This document shows, piece after piece, positions 4,277 to 58,942 of a stretch of 64,000 bases of DNA. Below the pieces are notes generated by a model. The model was not told where the DNA came from. It did no database searches and was given only the letters and a program-made list of their open reading frames with translations. The stretch is from Novosphingobium sp. Lineage in GTDB: Bacteria > Pseudomonadota > Alphaproteobacteria > Sphingomonadales > Sphingomonadaceae. Positions within the stretch are counted from its first letter, which is position 1. Each line of letters starts with the position of its first letter. The stretch lies in contig JACKKX010000001.1 in NCBI GenBank assembly GCA_024236215.1, positions 1,094,727 through 1,158,726 of the forward strand. Direction: 5' to 3'. The position numbers were made by a program, and so were the translations under genes.

Positions 4277-5662
4277 ATGGAGGCAAGACCAGGCACCGCG
4301 CAAGGGCCGGAGGCAACAGAACGAAGGCTGCCGCTGCACCGCCAGCTCTATGCCCAGGTGCTGACGGCGATCGTTGCCGGTGCACTGCTGGGCCATTTCT
4401 TTCCCGAGCTGGGTACGGCGCTCAAGCCGCTAGGCGATGGCTTCATCAAGCTGGTGAAGATGATCATTGCCCCGGTGATCTTCCTGACCGTGGCCAGCGG
4501 CATTGCCGGGATGAGCAACATGGGCAAGGTCGGGTCGGTTGCGGGCAAGGCGCTGGCTTACTTCCTGGTGCTTTCAACCCTGGCGCTGATCATCGGGCTT
4601 GCGGTAGGCAATCTGGTGCGGCCCGGCGCCGGACTGAACATCGATCCGGCGACGCTCGATGCCAAGTCAGTCGCGACCTACGCCCAGACCGCCCACCAGC
4701 AGAGCCTTACCGGTTTCGTCCTCGACATCATTCCCGAGACCCTGCTCAGCGCCATGACCGAAGGAAAGATCCTTCAGGTGCTGCTCGTTGCAATCCTGTC
4801 CGGTGCGGCCATGGCCATGACCCGCCCGCACAGCGATCTGGTGCTCGACATGCTGGGGTCGTTGAGCGAAATCGTGTTCAAGCTGGTGCACATGCTGATG
4901 AAGCTGGCGCCGATCGGGGCCTTCGGCGCGATCGCCTTTACCATCGGCCAGTTCGGCATCGCCTCGCTGACCAATCTCGCCGCGCTGGTTGCGACCTTCT
5001 ATCTCACCTCGCTGCTGTTCGTGCTGGTGGTGCTAGGGCTGGTCGGCCATTTCGCCGGATTCTCGATCTTCGCGCTGATCCGCTTCCTGCGCGAGGAGCT
5101 GTTGCTGGTGCTGGGCACGTCGTCGTCCGAAGCCGCCCTGCCCAGCCTGATGGAGAAGATGGAAATAGCCGGTTGCCGCAAGGCGGTGGTCGGCCTGGTG
5201 GTTCCCACCGGTTATTCTTTCAATCTTGACGGCACCAACATCTATATGACGCTGGCTTCGCTGTTCATCGCCCAGGCAGTGGGGATCGACCTGAGCTGGA
5301 GCGAGCAGTTGGCGCTCGTGCTGGTGGCGATGATCAGCTCGAAAGGGGCAGCCGGCGTAACCGGCGCGGGCTTCGTGATCCTGGCCGCGACGCTTTCGGT
5401 GGTGCCATCCGTGCCGGTTGCAGGCATGGCGCTGATCCTGGGCATCGATCGCTTTATGAGCGAGTGCCGCGCGCTTACCAATTTCATCGGCAATGCGGTC
5501 GCCACGGTGGTCGTCGCGCGCTGGGAGGGCGCCCTCGACAAGGCCCGGCTCGCCGCCGCAATGGCCGGAAATCCCATGCCCCTGCCCGAAGAAGATATCG
5601 AACGGCACGAACGCACCGGCCCTTCCGGCATCGCTGCCCACGGTGCGGGAGCCGCATCGTGA
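4277..5662 (+). CDS. dctA: C4-dicarboxylate:proton/cation symporter DctA
   Basis: This 461-residue inner-membrane transporter of the glutamate/aspartate:H+ symporter family imports succinate, fumarate and malate. Family signatures are visible: [19 protein letters not shown] (first re-entrant serine-rich loop), [22 protein letters not shown] (NMDGT-type motif), and [20 protein letters not shown] (second re-entrant loop). I chose ATG 4277 because GAGGGGGG precedes it and the family normally starts close to the first helix. The upstream in-frame ATG at 4208 would add 23 arginine-rich residues. The divergent dctB/dctD pair supports the assignment. The C-terminus overlaps the next gene by GTGA. 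Confidence 0.95.
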
Positions 5663-52086: not shown

Positions 52087-52749
52087 TCACCCCAGACCCT
52101 TGAGCGCGGCGATATTGGCGGCATAGCGCTCGCTGCCACCGCGGAAGGTCGCGGTTCCGGCAACCAGCACATCGGCTCCGGCAGCGACGCACAGCCGCGC
52201 GGTTTCGGCATCGACCCCGCCATCGACCTGAAGCCGGATTTCGCGCCCGGACTTGTCGATCGCCTTGCGGATCGCCTCGATCTTGCGCAGCTGGCTGGAA
52301 ATGAAGCTCTGCCCGCCGAAACCTGGGTTGACGCTCATCACCAGCACCAGATCGACCTCTTCGTAGAGGTAATCGAGCATCTTGGCGGGGGTTGCCGGAT
52401 TGAGCGAAACCCCGGCCTGCTTGCCCAGCGCCTTGATCGCCTGGACCGTGCGGTGGGAATGCGGCCCTGCCTCGGGATGAAAGGTGATGATATCGGCCCC
52501 CGCCTCGGCAAAGGCCTGGATGAAGGGATCGACCGGCTGGATCATCAGATGGACATCGAGCGGCAGGCTGGTGTGCGGGCGCAGCGCCTTCACCACCATC
52601 GGCCCGATGGTGAGGTTGGGAACGAAATGCCCGTCCATCACATCGACGTGGATCCAGTCCGCCCCTGCCGCCTCAAGCGCGCGCACTTCCTCGCCGAGCC
52701 GGGCAAAGTCGGCGGAAAGGATCGAAGGTGAAATCAGCGGGACGGGCAT
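52087..52749 (-). CDS. rpe: Ribulose-phosphate 3-epimerase
   Basis: This 220-residue TIM barrel interconverts ribulose-5-phosphate and xylulose-5-phosphate. The first strand is [18 protein letters not shown], and [20 protein letters not shown] supplies a metal-binding His/Asp pair. [35 protein letters not shown] and [20 protein letters not shown] then VLVAGTATF follow. I chose ATG 52749 because family members begin just before this strand; a GTG at 52791 would add 14 residues. First gene of an rpe-heparinase-purH unit, divergent from the RiPP locus. Confidence 0.96.
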
Positions 52750-52859
52750 GGCTGGTGCAACAAACTCCCTCGACCGGGCGTTACCTACCACATCTTGTGC
52801 TCACAACCGGACCAAAGGCGTTTTCCACACGGTTGCTCGGCCTCTTGCCGCTCCGCAAA

Positions 52860-52899: not shown

Positions 52900-53774
52900 A
52901 TGTCGAGTCCGGCACCGCTCCACCCCTCCCAGCAGATGTTGCTGCGCGAGACCAAGCTTGAGCACGGACCGGTCCCGGAAGAGCTTGACGGAGTGCCCGT
53001 GCCGCCGGGACAGCACCGCATGGCTGGCGGAGCCTTTCTGCTTCACGCTGAAAGCGGGGTCCGGTTTCTCTATCGGCGCGGCGCGGGGCATGTGCTTTGC
53101 GAGGCTGCGGACAGTATCGATCCCGCCGAGCTCGCACTTTGGCACAATGGCAGCGTCTATGCCGCCGTGGCGGCGCTCAACGGGCTGCGCCCGTTTCACG
53201 CCTCGGCGATCGCGCACGCCGGGCTGGCGATCGCGTTCACCGCGCCCGGCGGCGGCGGCAAATCGACCATCGCGGCGGCACTTGCGGCGCGCGGCTTTGC
53301 GCTTTTTGCCGATGACACCCTGGTGCTCGATCTGGGCGATCCCGATCATCCGGTCTGCCTGCCGGGCCACAAGCGGCTGAAGCTGACCGCTGAAGCGCTG
53401 GCCCTGACCGGGCTGGAAAGACAGGAACAGGTGGCACCGGACTATCCCAAGCACTATGCCCTGCCGCCCCGGGCAGAACCGCTCGGCGCCCCGCGCTGGC
53501 CGGGCTGGTCTTTCTGGAATATGCCGAGCAACCGGAGTTGATCGGGCTGTCCGGTGCGGAACGCTTCGCGCGTCTGCAGGATACCCACGATACCGACGCG
53601 TTCTGGCGCACGGCGCAAGGAGCTGACCGGGCTGGACTTTTCGCCGCGCAGGCGGGCCTGGCGCGGTCCACCGCGATGTGGCGTTTGCGGCGCCCGCGCA
53701 ATCTGGCGCAGTTCGGGGCCAGCCTCGATCTGGCAGAGAGCGTCGTTGACCAATTGACCGGAGCAGCAAGATGA
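52900..53774 (+). pseudogene. HPr-kinase-like RiPP kinase, frameshifted near 53496
   Basis: ATG 52900 (after AAGG) opens an HprK-related domain with Walker A TAPGGGGKST, K121, then FALFADDTLVLDLGDPDH. The first frame stops at 53541 after 213 residues, with an unrelated tail beginning WPGWSFWN. From about 53496 a second frame continues the family sequence: LAGLVFLEYAEQPELIGLSG, then MWRLRRPRNLAQFGASLDLA, to a TGA at 53772-53774. The two halves join if one base (a C before TGGCCGGG) is restored. In related lasso loci such kinases phosphorylate the precursor's C-terminal residue. The second frame ends in an ATGA overlap with the B1 gene, so it was once a complete gene. A sequencing error or programmed -1 shift is also possible. 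Confidence 0.75.
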
Positions 53775-54052
53775 CGCCACCTCTCACGGGACCGATTTCC
53801 AAACGTCACGACAGCTTCGTCGAGACAGCGATTGACGACGAAACGGTTATGATGAGCCTGCAGAGCGGGGATTTCTTCTCGCTCAGAGGCAGCGCGGCAG
53901 CGATCTGGGAGCTGCTTGACGGCACCCGCGATCGCGCCGCGATCTGTGCGCAGCTTGCGCTCGAGCACACGGCCCAGCCGGACGATATCGCGCGCGATGT
54001 CGATGCCTTTCTGAACGATCTCGTTTCTGCCGGGCTGATTGCGGCGGGCTGA
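53771..54052 (+). CDS. PqqD-like RiPP recognition protein (lasso B1)
   Basis: This 93-residue protein has the PqqD winged-helix pattern: FVETAIDDETVMMSLQSGDF, FSLRGSAAAIWELLDGTRDR and DVDAFLNDLVSAGLIAAG. B1 proteins bind the leader of the precursor peptide and bring it to the B2 protease and cyclase. ATG 53771 overlaps the stop of the kinase-like gene, and its own stop shares one base with the B2 start (TGATG). Strong context: B2, precursor, cyclase-like protein and exporter follow. Confidence 0.9.
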   Translation: MTPPLTGPISKRHDSFVETAIDDETVMMSLQSGDFFSLRGSAAAIWELLDGTRDRAAICAQLALEHTAQPDDIARDVDAFLNDLVSAGLIAAG

Positions 54053-54447
54053 TGCGCTGGCGCCTGTCCGTGCTGGAAGCGATCATCCTGCTGGTGATGG
54101 CCCGGCTGCTGATATCTGCCGCGATGCTGCGGCGCTGGCGCGGCACGCTGGGTCGGCCGGTCGGCCAGGCAAATAGGGCCACGGCCACCCAGGCCGATCG
54201 AACACTGGCGCGAAGCATCGAGCGTGCCGCCCAGCGCTTGCCCGGAACCAGCAAGTGCCTGCCCCGGGCGGTTGCGCTTCACTGGATGCTGCGGCGGCGC
54301 GGCCGCCCCAGCCAGCTGGTCATCGCCGCTCTGCCCGAGCAGGATCGCGGAACGATCGACGACCTGCATGCCTGGACCGAAATCGGTGACGAAATCCTGA
54401 TTGGCGCGCTTGCCGCCCCTTTCCGCCCGGTGGTGCGCTTCGGATAA
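54052..54447 (+). CDS. Lasso-type leader peptidase B2 (transglutaminase-like)
   Basis: This 131-residue protein begins with a hydrophobic helix (VLEAIILLVMARLLISAAML). The cysteine-protease core follows, with C69 in GTSKCLPRAVALHWMLRRRG, H106 in DDLHAWTEIGD and D113 as a likely triad. This is the 'lasso peptide biosynthesis B2' family, which removes the leader from the precursor. It overlaps B1 by one base. The length is normal for the split B2 form. Confidence 0.9.
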   Translation: MRWRLSVLEAIILLVMARLLISAAMLRRWRGTLGRPVGQANRATATQADRTLARSIERAAQRLPGTSKCLPRAVALHWMLRRRGRPSQLVIAALPEQDRGTIDDLHAWTEIGDEILIGALAAPFRPVVRFG

Positions 54448-54526
54448 GAAGCTGATTCTGGATATCCAATCGTTTAGATGGTATCGCAAGCGCCGGGCGG
54501 AATTAACAGTTCAAGGAATGGAATCG

Positions 54527-54655
54527 ATGGACAGCAAGACCGAAACCAAGGCCAAGGTGTGGCAGAAGCCTGAACTCACCAGACTTGGCAAGATGACCGA
54601 TGTCGGGCCGGGCAGCGCGACCAGCACGCGCCAGGGGGCGAACAACCGTACCTGA
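54527..54655 (+). CDS. RiPP precursor peptide (42 aa) with non-canonical core
   Basis: ATG 54527 (AAGGA about 9 bases upstream; an in-frame ATG at 54518 is too close) opens 42 codons. The leader MDSKTETKAK then VWQKPELTRLGKM matches the lasso leader pattern Y/W-x2-P-x-L-x3-G (W12, P15, L17, G21) that B1 proteins bind. The remainder is TDVGPGSATSTRQGANNRT. A lasso core needs Gly/Ala/Ser/Cys at position 1 and Asp/Glu at 7-9. After D25 there is no acidic residue, and no start position satisfies the rule. The Thr usually at leader position -2 is also misplaced. The last residue is Thr, a possible kinase target. It lies between B2 and the cyclase gene. Confidence 0.8.
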   Translation: MDSKTETKAKVWQKPELTRLGKMTDVGPGSATSTRQGANNRT

Positions 54656-54702
54656 GCCTTGCGGCCCGTCCGATCATGCACGCGCCTGATTGCTGAAGGG
54701 CC

Positions 54703-56619
54703 ATGATCGCGATTGAGTGGCTGCGCCGGGGCGAGGGTGCGCTTTCGCCGGGCGGCTTTGCGCAAGCGCTGGCGGCCGGAAGCGCGAAGGCTTCGGGCCA
54801 ATTTGCTGCGGAGCAGTTTCAGGCTGCCGAACTTCTGGCCTTCTCTGGGCGGCGCAGGGCGCTTGGCTGGCGCCCGGTCGAGGTCGGACCGCTGACGGTC
54901 CTGTTCAGCGGCCATCTCGACAATCCCCCGCTTGCCGAACTTGACGAGCTCGGCGCCGACTGGACCGATCCGCGCGTGCTTGCCCGGCTCTACGCCAAGT
55001 CCCGTCTGCGCTGGGGCGCCGCCACCGATCGCCGCCTGATCGGCGAATACGCCGTGATCGAACTTGACCGGTCGGCCCGGACCTTGCGTCTGGTGCGCTC
55101 GCCGCTGCGCGCACCGCCCCTGCAATACCACGCTGGCGAGGAGCGGGTGATCGCGGCCTCGGTGCCCCGCGCAATTCATGCCGCCGGCCTACCGGTGCGG
55201 CTCAACGAAGCCAAATTGGCGGATCACGGCCTGTTCAATTTTTCCGATCCGGTGGCGGGCTGGTTCGTCGGGATCGAACGGGTGCCGCTGGGAACCGAGG
55301 TGGTATTCACTCCCGGTGAAAGCGCCAGCCGACTGGTCTATGATCTGCGGGCCCTGCCCAAGGTGCGCATGCGCAGCGATAGCGAATACCTGGAAGCCGC
55401 GCACAGCTTGCTGTCCGAAGGCACCCGGGCCGCGCTGCATGGCTGTAAACGCCCTGGGGTGATGCTTTCGGGAGGGCTGGATTCGCCGATCGTCGCCGCC
55501 AAGGCGCTGGCCGAGCTGCCGCCAGATGGGACGCTGCGATCCTACACCTTTACGGTTGAACCCGAATGGGACGGATTCGAGTTTCCCGGCCAGTTCGGCA
55601 ACGAGCGCCCGCTGGTCGAGGCATTTGCCGCCATGTACCCGCGGCTCGAAGCGCGCTTCTTCGACAATGCCGGAAGCGGGTTCGACGCGGGGCTGGCCGA
55701 GATGCATTTCGCGACCGGATCGGGTGCGATCCACCAGACCAATTTCTCGCAATTCCATGCGCTCTGGCGCGCCGCACGCAGCGATGGCTGCGACCGCATC
55801 CTGATGGGCGATTTCGGCAACTACACCTTCAGCACCGAGGGCTATTGGGGGTTCGTTGAGTATTTCCTGACCGGGCGCTGGCGGCAGCTCTACCTCGCCC
55901 TGCGCGATGCCGGATTCGATGAGCGGCCGCTTTGGCGGCGTTTCATCACCAATGTCGTGATGCCGCTGCTGCCCGAGCCGCTGTTCCGCTGGCAGCGCGC
56001 GGTGCGCGGCATGCCCGATGTCTTCGCTCTGGCCAGCCCGCTCAATCCCGGATTTGCTCGCGAATCGGGCGCCCTGGAACGCGCAGCAAGGGCGGGGCTG
56101 CCGCGCCGCCGCTCCGCGCTTCGGGCCCGATGGGACGATTTCTGCGCCATGCAGGGCGAAGACATGGGCGAGCACAGCGACCTGATGCACGGGTTTGAGC
56201 AGATCTACGGCATCTCCCAGCGCGATCCGACCGCCTACCGGCCCTTTGCGGAGTTCTGCTTCGGCCTTCCCACCCCCATGTTCCTGCGCGATGGCCAGAC
56301 CCGCTGGCTGGCGCGCGAGATGGGCCGGGGGATCCTTCCCGAACCGCAGCGGATCAACCCCGCTCACGGGGTTCATAACGCCGATTGGCACGTCAAGCTG
56401 GGCCGCATGCGCAAGGACCTGCTGGGTGAAATCGATCGGCTTGCCGCAAGCGAGCGGCTGGCCTCGATCCTTGACTTCGACAAGGTTCGCGCCGCGCTGG
56501 AGGATTGGCCCGAGGACAGCAGTATCCCGCATGAGCGGCGCCTTCCGCTTGAGGCCGCGGCGACCCGGGCGGTGGCTTTGGCCCGCTATGTGAACTTTGT
56601 CGAAGGACGCAACGCATGA
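54703..56619 (+). CDS. Asparagine-synthetase-like protein (lasso cyclase C homologue)
   Basis: This 638-residue protein has an N-terminal glutaminase-like domain that lacks the catalytic Cys2 (it begins MIAIEW), as in lasso cyclases. The C-terminal synthetase domain has the pyrophosphate loop GVMLSGGLDSPIVAAKAL (S256-GGLD-S261). The later ATP/acyl region reads ILMGDFGNYTFSTEGYWGF. Family members adenylate an Asp/Glu side chain and close it onto the core's N-terminus. The local precursor has no such residue, so the adenylated group could be the C-terminus or an unusual position. It starts 47 bases after the precursor, and its stop overlaps the exporter start. Confidence 0.9.
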   Translation: MIAIEWLRRGEGALSPGGFAQALAAGSAKASGQFAAEQFQAAELLAFSGRRRALGWRPVEVGPLTVLFSGHLDNPPLAELDELGADWTDPRVLARLYAKSRLRWGAATDRRLIGEYAVIELDRSARTLRLVRSPLRAPPLQYHAGEERVIAASVPRAIHAAGLPVRLNEAKLADHGLFNFSDPVAGWFVGIERVPLGTEVVFTPGESASRLVYDLRALPKVRMRSDSEYLEAAHSLLSEGTRAALHGCKRPGVMLSGGLDSPIVAAKALAELPPDGTLRSYTFTVEPEWDGFEFPGQFGNERPLVEAFAAMYPRLEARFFDNAGSGFDAGLAEMHFATGSGAIHQTNFSQFHALWRAARSDGCDRILMGDFGNYTFSTEGYWGFVEYFLTGRWRQLYLALRDAGFDERPLWRRFITNVVMPLLPEPLFRWQRAVRGMPDVFALASPLNPGFARESGALERAARAGLPRRRSALRARWDDFCAMQGEDMGEHSDLMHGFEQIYGISQRDPTAYRPFAEFCFGLPTPMFLRDGQTRWLAREMGRGILPEPQRINPAHGVHNADWHVKLGRMRKDLLGEIDRLAASERLASILDFDKVRAALEDWPEDSSIPHERRLPLEAAATRAVALARYVNFVEGRNA

Positions 56620-58313
56620 CCCCTGCCGCCGCCAATCGGCCCCGGCTGTTCGAGCCCGCGCGCGACGGTCTGACCGCGCTGGGCGTGGGCGCGCTGATGC
56701 TGCTGAGCGCAATCAGCGAGGGAATCGGCGCCGTGCTGCTGGTGCCCCTGCTCGGCGCATTGGGAACGCCAGCCGGAGGTCGGATCGAACGGTTCTTCGC
56801 GGCGCTGGGGGTGCCGATTCGGCTCGAGGTACTGCTGATGCTGTTCGTCGCGCTGGTGGCAGCTCGCGCGCTGGTCGTCCAGGCGCGCACGCTGGCCGCA
56901 TTTCGGTTCGAGGCCCGGCTGGTGGATGGACTGCGTCAGCGCGCCTGGCGCGCGCTGATCGGCGCCGAGTGGCGCGCCCTGCTGAGCATGCGCCGTGCCG
57001 GGACCGTCAGTCTGCTTGGCGCGCGGCTCGACCAGGTGGGCGATCACGTCAACCAGTTGCTCCAGGCGGCTTCGGGCGCGGCAACCCTGGCCGGGCTGGG
57101 GCTGGCGGCACTGGCGATTTCGCCGCGGTTGGCCGGCGGGCTGGCGCTGTCCGGGGCTGCGGTGCTCTTGGGATATCATGCGATGCGTCGCCGGGCTGGC
57201 GAACTTGGCCAACGTTTCGGCGAGGCCCACGCCGGGGTTCACGGCCAGCTTGACGAAAGTCTTGGGGCGTTGCGCCTGATCAAGGGACTGGGCCGGGAAG
57301 ACAGGGCGATCGATGGATTGGCCGATCAGGTCGGCGCGATGCGCCGGGCGCAGCGCCGGTGGCTGATCGACGCCGGTAAGGGGCAGTTCGCGCTGCAAGC
57401 AGGGGGAGCGGCGCTGCTGGCCTTGCTGGTCTGGCTGGCGCTGGCCCGCTGGCACCTTGGCATGGTGCAGGTGCTGCCGATGGTGGCGATTGCCGCGCGC
57501 GCGCTACCGCTGCTCGGGGCACTTCAGCAAAACCTGCTCGGCGCCGCGCACAGCCGCCCGGCGCTCGATGCCGCGCTCGATCTGATCGCGCGTGCCGAAG
57601 CCGCGCGCGAAGGCGGCGATGATGAGGCAGTGGCGCCGGTGCTGAACCGGACGCTGCGCCTCGAAAGCGTAAGCGTGCGTTTTGCCGGGGCTTCTCACCC
57701 TTCGCTCGAGCGGGTAGACCTCGAGATTCCCGCGCGCGGCATCGTTGCGGTCATCGGCCCTTCGGGCGCGGGGAAGAGCACGCTGGCCGACCTGCTTGGC
57801 GGGCTGATCGAGCCCGATGCGGGCAAGGTCACGGTCGATGGCGCCGCGCTCGAAGGCGCGGTGCGCCGGGCCTGGCGCCAGCGCGTCGCCTATGTCCAGC
57901 AGGAGCCGGTACTGTTTGCGGCGAGCCTGCGCGAAAACCTGCTCTGGGCCTCGCCCGAGGCAAGCGAGGAGCGTCTGCACGCAGCGCTGCGCGATGCTTC
58001 GGCAGGGTTCGCCCTCGATCTGCCGCAAGGCCTCGATACTCCCATCGGCGATGGCGGACGCGCCCTGTCGGGCGGCGAGCGTCAGCGGCTGATGCTGGCC
58101 CGGGCCTTGCTGCGCGATCCGGCGCTGCTGGTGCTCGACGAGGCGACCAGCGCGCTCGATGCCGCCAGCGAAGCCCAGGTGGCCCAGGCCATCGCCGCGC
58201 TGCGGGGGCGCATGACCGTGGTGGTAATCGGCCACCGCGGCGCCCTGTTGGCGCTGGCCGACCAGGCGATCGAGCTTGACGCGGGGCGGATCGTGCCCAC
58301 GAAAGAGGCTTGA
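56616..58313 (+). CDS. ABC exporter of the RiPP cluster (fused membrane and ATPase domains)
   Basis: This 565-residue half-transporter has about six N-terminal helices (GVGALMLLSAISEGIGAVLL; LLMLFVALVAARALVVQA; ATLAGLGLAALAISPRLAGG) and a C-terminal ATPase. The ATPase has Walker A GPSGAGKSTLAD (G381-K387), Q-loop YVQQEPVLFAASLRENLLW, signature RALSGGERQRLMLARALL and Walker B LLVLDEATSALD. It overlaps the cyclase gene by ATGA. Lasso D proteins of this type export the product and give immunity. No peptidase C39 domain is present, which fits leader removal by B2. Confidence 0.92.
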   Translation: MTPAAANRPRLFEPARDGLTALGVGALMLLSAISEGIGAVLLVPLLGALGTPAGGRIERFFAALGVPIRLEVLLMLFVALVAARALVVQARTLAAFRFEARLVDGLRQRAWRALIGAEWRALLSMRRAGTVSLLGARLDQVGDHVNQLLQAASGAATLAGLGLAALAISPRLAGGLALSGAAVLLGYHAMRRRAGELGQRFGEAHAGVHGQLDESLGALRLIKGLGREDRAIDGLADQVGAMRRAQRRWLIDAGKGQFALQAGGAALLALLVWLALARWHLGMVQVLPMVAIAARALPLLGALQQNLLGAAHSRPALDAALDLIARAEAAREGGDDEAVAPVLNRTLRLESVSVRFAGASHPSLERVDLEIPARGIVAVIGPSGAGKSTLADLLGGLIEPDAGKVTVDGAALEGAVRRAWRQRVAYVQQEPVLFAASLRENLLWASPEASEERLHAALRDASAGFALDLPQGLDTPIGDGGRALSGGERQRLMLARALLRDPALLVLDEATSALDAASEAQVAQAIAALRGRMTVVVIGHRGALLALADQAIELDAGRIVPTKEA

Positions 58314-58429: not shown

Positions 58430-58942
58430 ATGCCCATGTCTCTGCCCCGACGTTTCCGCGCCGCGGCCCGCTACCTTGCCCCGCTTGCAGCGGCTGGCGC
58501 GCTATTTTCTCTGGCCGGCAATGCCCCGGCACCGTCCGGCCCACCGGCGGGCTGCACCGGCCCGGCCAGCTCGACCTGGCTCAATGTCGTCGTCGAAGGC
58601 GTGCGCAACAGCAACGGGCTGGTTGCGGTCACGCTCTATGCCGATGATTCGAGCAAGTTCCTGATCAAGCACGGTTCGCTCTACGTCGGACGGGTCGATG
58701 CCCGGTCCGGAACCACGCGGGCCTGCATCTTCGTGCCCAAGCCGGGGGTCTATGCCCTCGCGCTCTATCACGACGAAAATTCGGACCGCTCGTTCGATCG
58801 CACCGGCGTGGGTCTGCCGGCGGAAGGCTACGGCTTTTCCAACAACCCGGCCACGCTTGCCGGGCTGCCGACGTTCAAGTCGGTGCGGATTGCCGTGCCC
58901 AAGCCTGGGCTGACCACCCGGGTGCAGATGAAATACCCCTGA
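58430..58942 (+). CDS. Exported DUF2141 protein
   Basis: This protein of about 170 residues has a signal (RRFRAAARYLAPLAAAGALF then SLAGNAPA). It has a DUF2141 beta-sandwich: WLNVVVEGVRNSNGLVAVTL, GVYALALYHDENSDRSFDRT and GVGLPAEGYGFSNNPATLAG. The DENxDxxFDxxxxGxPxEGYGFSNN pattern is diagnostic of the family. Function of DUF2141 is unknown; it is abundant in sphingomonads. AGGAAG precedes two candidate ATGs, 58430 and 58436. It lies about 117 bases after the exporter and could be a separate unit. Confidence 0.85.
   Translation: MPMSLPRRFRAAARYLAPLAAAGALFSLAGNAPAPSGPPAGCTGPASSTWLNVVVEGVRNSNGLVAVTLYADDSSKFLIKHGSLYVGRVDARSGTTRACIFVPKPGVYALALYHDENSDRSFDRTGVGLPAEGYGFSNNPATLAGLPTFKSVRIAVPKPGLTTRVQMKYP

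Follow-up and report, generated by a model that had tools for sequence, protein, structure and literature searches.

A lasso-type gene cluster of Novosphingobium and its relatives with glutamine at the predicted ring-forming position

The DNA analysed here is a 64,000-nucleotide stretch of a Novosphingobium sp. contig (JACKKX010000001.1; hereafter the window), and our subject is a gene cluster near its end for a lasso-type ribosomally synthesized and post-translationally modified peptide (RiPP). On the forward strand it encodes an HprK-like kinase, a leader-binding protein (B1), a leader peptidase (B2), a precursor (A), an asparagine-synthetase-like cyclase (C) and an exporter (D) (Table 1). 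A first-pass annotation, made from the DNA letters and their reading frames, had called this a lasso-type cluster, and the profile matches to B1, B2, C and D agree. The short overlaps that it described between frames are present (1 base for B1/B2; 4 bases each for kinase tail/B1 and cyclase/exporter), as are Cys69 and His106 of B2, which recur in 77/78 and 76/78 aligned B2 proteins, respectively. Canonical lasso cyclases activate a carboxylate. The window cluster has many of the usual lasso features: B1 and B2 genes, a cyclase with the SGGxDS motif and a leader of the form Y/WxxPxLxxxG, here W-x2-P-x-L-x3-G as first described. It has Val in place of Thr at the predicted leader position -2, and no Asp or Glu at core positions 7-9; indeed, no acidic residue follows D25 in the precursor. 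We show below that Gln prevails at the corresponding position across a clade of related clusters, and argue that the ring is probably closed there. The source genome contains a single match to the window cyclase.

Table 1. Genes of the lasso-type cluster and its flanks, in window coordinates
Feature	Position	Strand	Evidence
rpe, ribulose-phosphate 3-epimerase; flanking, outside the pathway	52087..52791	-	PF00834, E 1.9e-85
HprK-like kinase, N-terminal part	52900..53541	+	HASA, GGGGKS and DD motifs; HprK_rel_A TIGR04352, E 2.6e-9, below cut-off
Kinase, C-terminal part in another reading frame	53508..53774	+	Alignment to six relatives
B1, PqqD-like leader-binding protein (RiPP recognition element, RRE)	53771..54052	+	PF05402, E 2.5e-19
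B2, transglutaminase-like leader peptidase; Cys69 and His106	54052..54447	+	NF033537 (lasso_biosyn_B2), 65.4 bits against a cut-off of 33
Precursor A, 42 residues; leader end WQKPELTRLGKMTDVG, predicted core PGSATSTRQGANNRT, Gln9 at the predicted ring position	54527..54655	+	Sequence and relatives
C, asparagine-synthetase-like cyclase; SGGLDS, no Cys2, His558	54703..56619	+	PF00733, E 4.8e-15
D, ATP-binding cassette (ABC) exporter	56616..58313	+	PF00005, E 1.5e-31
DUF2141 protein after the exporter	58430-58942		PF09912

To define the core, we place the cut after D-[V/I]-x, with an uncertainty of one residue, because [V/I]-x matches the Ile/Val(-2) leaders published for kinase-containing lasso clusters, including some from Sphingomonadales (PMC10368454), and because the resulting register is that of Asp-type relatives (e.g. 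L089, with a leader ending in SIA and a core that opens GNRHPPG and continues with Asp8). Thr(-2), which the first-pass annotation had taken as the mark of lasso precursors, does not characterise this group: the predicted -2 residue is [V/I], as in the clusters of PMC10368454. The predicted window core runs from Pro1 through Gln9 to a C-terminal Thr. The two nearest cyclases (62% and 60% identical) are accompanied by the cores PRPNPGTTQGVNSRS and PSPNPGAAQGINNRS, both with Pro1 and Gln9 and both of the P1...Q9GxNxRS type, and the next cyclases (~50% identical) by PGIPGATEGGSGKS and similar cores with Glu8. Gln-type clusters also occur in isolates of Qipengyuania, Pontixanthobacter and Croceicoccus; in the same register, the cores of Qipengyuania nanhaisediminis and Pontixanthobacter luteolus are GPPVPFAQAAGNKRS and GRPVPVNQDSGNRKS. 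When 20 precursors were compared with the NCBIfam precursor families, one family only gave matches, to 2/20 and with a best E of 0.06.

Relatives of the cyclase were found in 56/298 genomes of the family (E up to 1e-20, Asp types included), in 70/396 genomes of an order search and in 15/385 of a class search (E up to 1e-15), these samples overlapping. Many of them are preceded by precursors whose leader reads WxxPxLxxxGxxx[DEN][VI]x. Across 57 loci, collected with a precursor pattern that was blind to the ring position but required a C-terminal Ser/Thr, the residue was Gln8 in 46, Gln9 in three, Glu8 in three, Asp9 in three and Asn9 in two. A further 44 loci came from a search with the cyclase-clade motif YRP[LF]..., which biases the sample towards the clade and not towards any precursor; here a pattern lacking the C-terminal requirement returned 36 precursors, all of which end in Ser. 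No precursor pattern was conditioned on the ring residue. Genomes overlap between the locus sets, and counts were made on distinct sequences only, giving 72 distinct leader/core pairs, or 69 once three of an Asp9 sister group were removed.

All 69 distinct cores have Asp, Glu, Asn or Gln at position 8 or 9: Gln8 in 54, Gln9 in six, Glu8 in five, Asp8 in two and Asn9 in two (by residue, 60 Gln, 2 Asn, 5 Glu and 2 Asp). With near-copies dropped, the remaining 53 cores divide into 39 Gln8, six Gln9, four Glu8, two Asp8 and two Asn9. There is no Asp or Glu anywhere in 42/69 distinct cores. Position 8 is Gln in 54/69 cores, as against 31/1074 for all other positions (binomial tail 2.7e-69), and in 39/53 after near-copy removal (binomial tail 1.6e-48), values that indicate scale only because the rows are related. 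Two additional Gln8 cores were read by eye (L180 and L205). Position 1 is Gly in most relatives. After the C-terminal residue, site 8/9 is the most constrained of the core, and such conservation is what a ring-forming position would be expected to show. The first-pass annotation had suggested a search of sphingomonad genomes and an alignment of the cores, in which homologues carrying Asp/Glu throughout would have marked the window copy as a mutant. The homologues are not of that kind: Gln or Asn occupies the site in 62/69 distinct cores, and the preference voiced at first pass for a working, unusual product class over decay is upheld.

In a tree of 96 cyclases, the Gln/Asn types, except for one pair, fall in a single 56-row clade (Shimodaira-Hasegawa-like approximate likelihood ratio test (SH-aLRT) 99), made up of 51 Gln/Asn types, three Glu types and two rows without a known precursor. 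In a tree of 109 rows with more relatives, the clade grows to 73 rows (SH-aLRT 100; 61 amide, seven acid and five unlabelled), and the Asp8 loci L178 and L183 take a poorly supported place near its base. The few Glu cores inside the amide clade are accompanied by kinase, B1 and B2. The separate pair, L085/L086, lies within an Asp8 group and would represent a second, independent origin of the Gln8 core. The ring residues of 23 distant loci were labelled by eye, eight of them simply as Asp without a position, and 16 rows of the 96-cyclase tree have no label; six long-branch rows (L070, L074, L093, L102, L134 and L137) were excluded from the 109-row tree and kept in the column counts below. The amide clade lies nested among Asp-type lasso cyclases, and across it the ring-forming residue appears to have been replaced by its own amide.

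The precursor patterns found nothing at two loci at contig ends (L029 and L181) or at L004/L114, L125, L126, L185 and L187, which lie outside the clade in the 109-row tree, and at many distant Asp-type or unlabelled loci they gave no clear precursor. They also missed L171, described below, and L033/L107, where a variant leader precedes a Gln8-like core. The sequences of L204 and L207 begin inside the cyclase. Some loci have unusual precursors: in L171, a precursor of the Gln8 pattern is in frame with a truncated B2 directly upstream of the cyclase, as if fused by a deletion; in L053, two tandem precursors, both Gln8, lie upstream of the cyclase; and the cores of L011, L023, L077, L078 and L191 contain Cys pairs, with a possible disulfide across ring or tail.

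The window cyclase matches the lasso cyclase model lass_lactam_cya (NF033535) with an E of 4.4e-25 and 88 bits, far below the cut-off of 525. All 51/51 Gln/Asn-type cyclases in the clade have Asp260 and Ser261 of the SGGLDS motif, which presumably means that adenylation has been kept. An AlphaFold2 model (predicted local distance difference test (pLDDT) 92.2; predicted template modelling score (pTM) 0.93) has the asparagine-synthetase fold. The nearest solved folds, the hydroxyamidotransferase TsnB9 (7ylz) and beta-lactam synthetase (1jgt), are also the nearest sequences, yet at only 15-16% identity, and no chain named lasso cyclase is among the fold or sequence matches listed. Glutamine-fed (ammonia-dependent) amidation seems unlikely: the second residue of class II glutaminases (AsnB type) is a catalytic Cys, whereas the window cyclase and the consensus both start M-I-A, with Ile at that position.

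We also compared columns of the cyclase alignment with the acceptor. Across 40 cyclases outside the clade, 61 columns are conserved. Four of these are changed in at least 80% of Gln/Asn-type rows and five in L085/L086, and column 558 is the only one in both lists. Its Gln is replaced in the clade mostly by His, otherwise by Trp, Thr or Pro, and in L085/L086 by Asp. In the rows listed, Gln558 is kept with D8 in 13/13, with D9 in 3/3 and with other Asp types in 6/8, but with Q8 in 0/55 and with N9 in 0/2. An alignment below significance puts column 558 beside the loop that, in beta-lactam synthetase, bears the catalytic lysine. No residue separates Gln from Asp/Glu cyclases perfectly, 558 being the best and having exceptions; Y512/P514 was rejected as a diagnostic because the Asp9 sister group shares it.

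On balance, we think it probable, though far from assured, that the cluster makes a lasso-type (lariat) RiPP closed at Gln (Gln9 here, Gln8 in most relatives), with the Gln used directly by the cyclase. B1 would bind the W-x2-P-x-L leader and B2 would cleave after D-[V/I]-x, freeing the N-terminus of the core (Pro1 here, Gly1 in most). The cyclase would then use ATP to activate the residue 8/9 side chain, by O-adenylation of the carboxamide, and the freed N-terminus would attack it; the exporter would ship the product out. Loss of adenosine monophosphate (AMP) in that attack would leave a macrocyclic amidine, 18.011 Da lighter than the encoded core, while loss of ammonia, the amide serving as acyl donor, would leave an ordinary lactam (minus 17.027 Da). 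Deamidation followed by lactam formation would likewise end at minus 17.027 Da, and we cannot choose firmly among these three routes. For the window core, the calculated [M+H]+ is 1517.7415 (linear), 1500.7150 (lactam) or 1499.7309 (amidine), and 1574.7630, 1557.7364 or 1556.7524 with the cut one residue earlier; in the same order, the values are 1496.7968, 1479.7703 and 1478.7862 for the Q. nanhaisediminis core and 1610.8357, 1593.8092 and 1592.8252 for that of P. luteolus. That the N-terminus displaces AMP from an O-adenylated Gln/Asn carboxamide, so that a macrocyclic amidine would close a ribosomal lariat for the first time, is a tentative proposal that we consider less likely than not. 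Our preference for direct use of Gln by the cyclase, by whatever route, comes from the retained ATP motif, the 60 to 5 excess of Gln over Glu, the change of column 558 with the acceptor, and the fact that no additional Gln-linked gene was recognised.

The composition of the clusters varies across the clade. Of 32 Gln/Asn loci seen in a wider context, 15 had a detected B2 and 14 a detected kinase, so many clusters seem to be B1-A-C-D only. Of the 17 loci in which no B2 was detected in the cluster, 15 genomes were tested and all 15 contain a B2 elsewhere, in two of them on the same contig about 6 and 9 kb away. In two loci (L163 and L164, at about 4950-5420) a B2 gene lies beside an acyl-CoA dehydrogenase gene (Pfam, for L164), away from the cluster that has none. 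The 15 B2 proteins aligned from 17 retrieved regions keep the Cys and His. Supply of B2 in trans is suggestive only, and is weakened as a proof of need since B2 is common without a cyclase (a PF13471 protein is present in 130/298 family genomes, some with no cyclase match) and since some copies sit in other lasso-type clusters. HprK-like matches were present in each of 20 genomes examined for a kinase in trans, most of them distant and the result uninformative. Where relatives retain an intact kinase, their C-terminal Ser/Thr is probably its target, and phosphorylation would add 79.966 Da.

In the window, the kinase frame is broken at about 53470-53507, where six aligned relatives have one single frame. 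Since the tail past the break is still conserved, the break would be either a recent frameshift or an assembly error. Of the two features of a C-terminally phosphorylated lasso peptide, an intact HprK-like kinase and a C-terminal Ser/Thr, the window copy has only the second, as Thr, its kinase frame being broken. The ratio of nonsynonymous to synonymous substitution rates (dN/dS) of the cyclase is 0.26-0.39 against three relatives, with dS near saturation. In every comparison that yielded a dS estimate, the ratio for B1, B2, C and D stays under 1, with B1 reaching 0.85 in one pair; the precursor is too short for such a judgement.

Several observations weigh against closure at a directly used Gln. 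The cut site could be off by one. An acidic residue is present at positions 7-9 in 21/69 cores, in 14 of these beside a Gln (the seven acid acceptors subtracted). Gln558 is kept in 2/6 Q9 rows among those listed, and the seven Glu8 rows have three His, one Pro, one Glu, one gap and one Gln at that column; furthermore, a chance overlap of about 0.3 columns is expected for lists of four and five drawn from 61, which is not negligible, and the distant labels were set partly by eye, so the change at 558 is support and not proof. In some genomes (e.g. G096), the off-cluster B2 belongs to another lasso-type cluster. Tails are short (median 7 residues) with an aromatic residue in only 5/71, which makes a threaded knot doubtful. 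Finally, Glu cores with this gene set are equally compatible with an ordinary lactam as the end product. This last point leads to the possibility that B2, the cyclase or a housekeeping enzyme converts Gln to Glu by deamidation before the ring is closed as in any lasso peptide. Such a route would end in a known bond type, B2 is transglutaminase-like with its Cys and His, and Glu8 occurs in several lineages of the clade with the same genes. We consider it unlikely but far from negligible: were Gln and Glu equivalent, a preference of 60 to 5 would be unexpected, and a cyclase that always met Glu would not need to lose Gln558. Nor was a deamidase recognised among the 28 largest clusters of neighbouring genes, which cover 10-kb stretches mostly reaching up to 3 kb past the cyclase; not every one was identified, and several are antisense frames or flanking genes.

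It is less probable again that the cyclase ignores the 8/9 side chain, leaving a linear product or a bond elsewhere (at the C-terminal carboxylate, D7 or a side-chain amine). The short tails, the C-terminal Ser kept even where no kinase was detected, and the D7 or D9 of some cores fit this idea. They must be set against the confinement of 8/9 to D/E/N/Q, the 42 cores without any acid, and the variation of D7 to N7 (L028/L076 versus L044) while Gln8 stays; amidation of the C-terminus by ammonia also seems unlikely given Ile at position 2. The first-pass annotation had offered the C-terminus, Asn or Thr as the acceptor in the window peptide, which is not what the relatives indicate: conservation falls on Gln, which is residue 9 here, Asn9 occurs in 2/69, and these candidates have no conserved pattern besides the C-terminal Ser, which is also found in Asp-type relatives with a kinase. 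The same annotation allowed that the cluster was decaying. This applies to the kinase frame, whose frameshift it had overlooked, and not to the rest. That Gln9 is a lesion in a decaying lasso cluster is very improbable: the two nearest relatives have an identical Gln9 core type, on which ground we reject simple decay, the remaining frames are open with B2 and ATP-motif residues present, the dN/dS estimates given above for B1, B2, C and D lie below 1, and the conserved kinase tail marks even that break as recent or as an assembly error.

Known systems share parts of this arrangement. Paeninodin, ThcoA, SyanA (from Sphingobium) and pseudomycoidin likewise combine an HprK-like kinase, B1, B2 and a cyclase with a C-terminal Ser phosphorylation site; a review treats their ring as the usual macrolactam (PMC9266682), whereas here the acceptor would be Gln, or Asn in 2/69, and, unlike that group, many Gln-clade clusters have no detected kinase or B2. 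BsfA of Bradymonas and other Ile/Val(-2) precursors, Sphingomonadales examples among them, have the [I/V](-2) leader, the kinase and a Gly1 core start in common with the present clusters, but the BsfA ring is assigned as Gly1-Asp8 (PMC10368454). Sphingocin of Sphingomonas BPH is also the product of a sphingomonad lasso operon, which differs in its core (GPGFINND..., Asp8), its leader, the lack of an exporter and the presence of an isopeptidase neighbour (PMC11006600). A chemical precedent is PesC, the nitrile synthetase of the nitrilobacillins, a RiPP enzyme that resembles asparagine synthetase and for which adenylation of a peptide amide has been proposed; its substrate is the C-terminus, it uses glutamine-derived ammonia, and it yields a nitrile and no ring (PMC13060819). 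The 'unprecedented ring' of metanodin refers to Asn at position 1 and not to the acceptor (PMC12670498), and lasso clusters had already been predicted in Erythrobacter by a genome paper (PMC9723273). Among the literature matches listed there was no lasso peptide closed at Gln or Asn, though the supplementary precursors of PMC10368454 may include such cases without comment, and the excerpt of a June 2026 lasso review mentions neither glutamine nor amidine (PMC13352647).

The chromosomal setting is a further feature of the clade. Heparinase II/III-like and rpe genes (Pfam) adjoin the cluster in 29/32 Gln/Asn and 2/2 Glu loci of the wider set, versus 0/2 Asp9 and 0/41 other loci, the latter including L107 (a clade member with a nonstandard precursor) and L085/L086. 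Given these shared flanking genes, the cluster has probably been inherited vertically at one chromosomal site. A DUF2141 gene lies downstream in 17/34 clade loci, sometimes directly after the cyclase, and is probably the other flank of the site and not a pathway gene.

An Asp/Glu ring residue enters both the definition of lasso peptides and the search for them, and tools that insist on the acid would miss or mis-predict a whole clade with Gln. What an asparagine-synthetase-like enzyme is able to activate could here be decided by one mass, -18.011 versus -17.027 Da. The cyclase of a widespread bacterial cluster family may form a bond so far unseen in lasso peptides; if the amidine proposal is true, the bond would be new to lasso-type RiPPs and the reaction new to the asparagine-synthetase fold, in a cluster inherited at one site across Sphingomonadales. 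Inheritance at one site suggests a physiological role for the product more than that of a mobile antibiotic.

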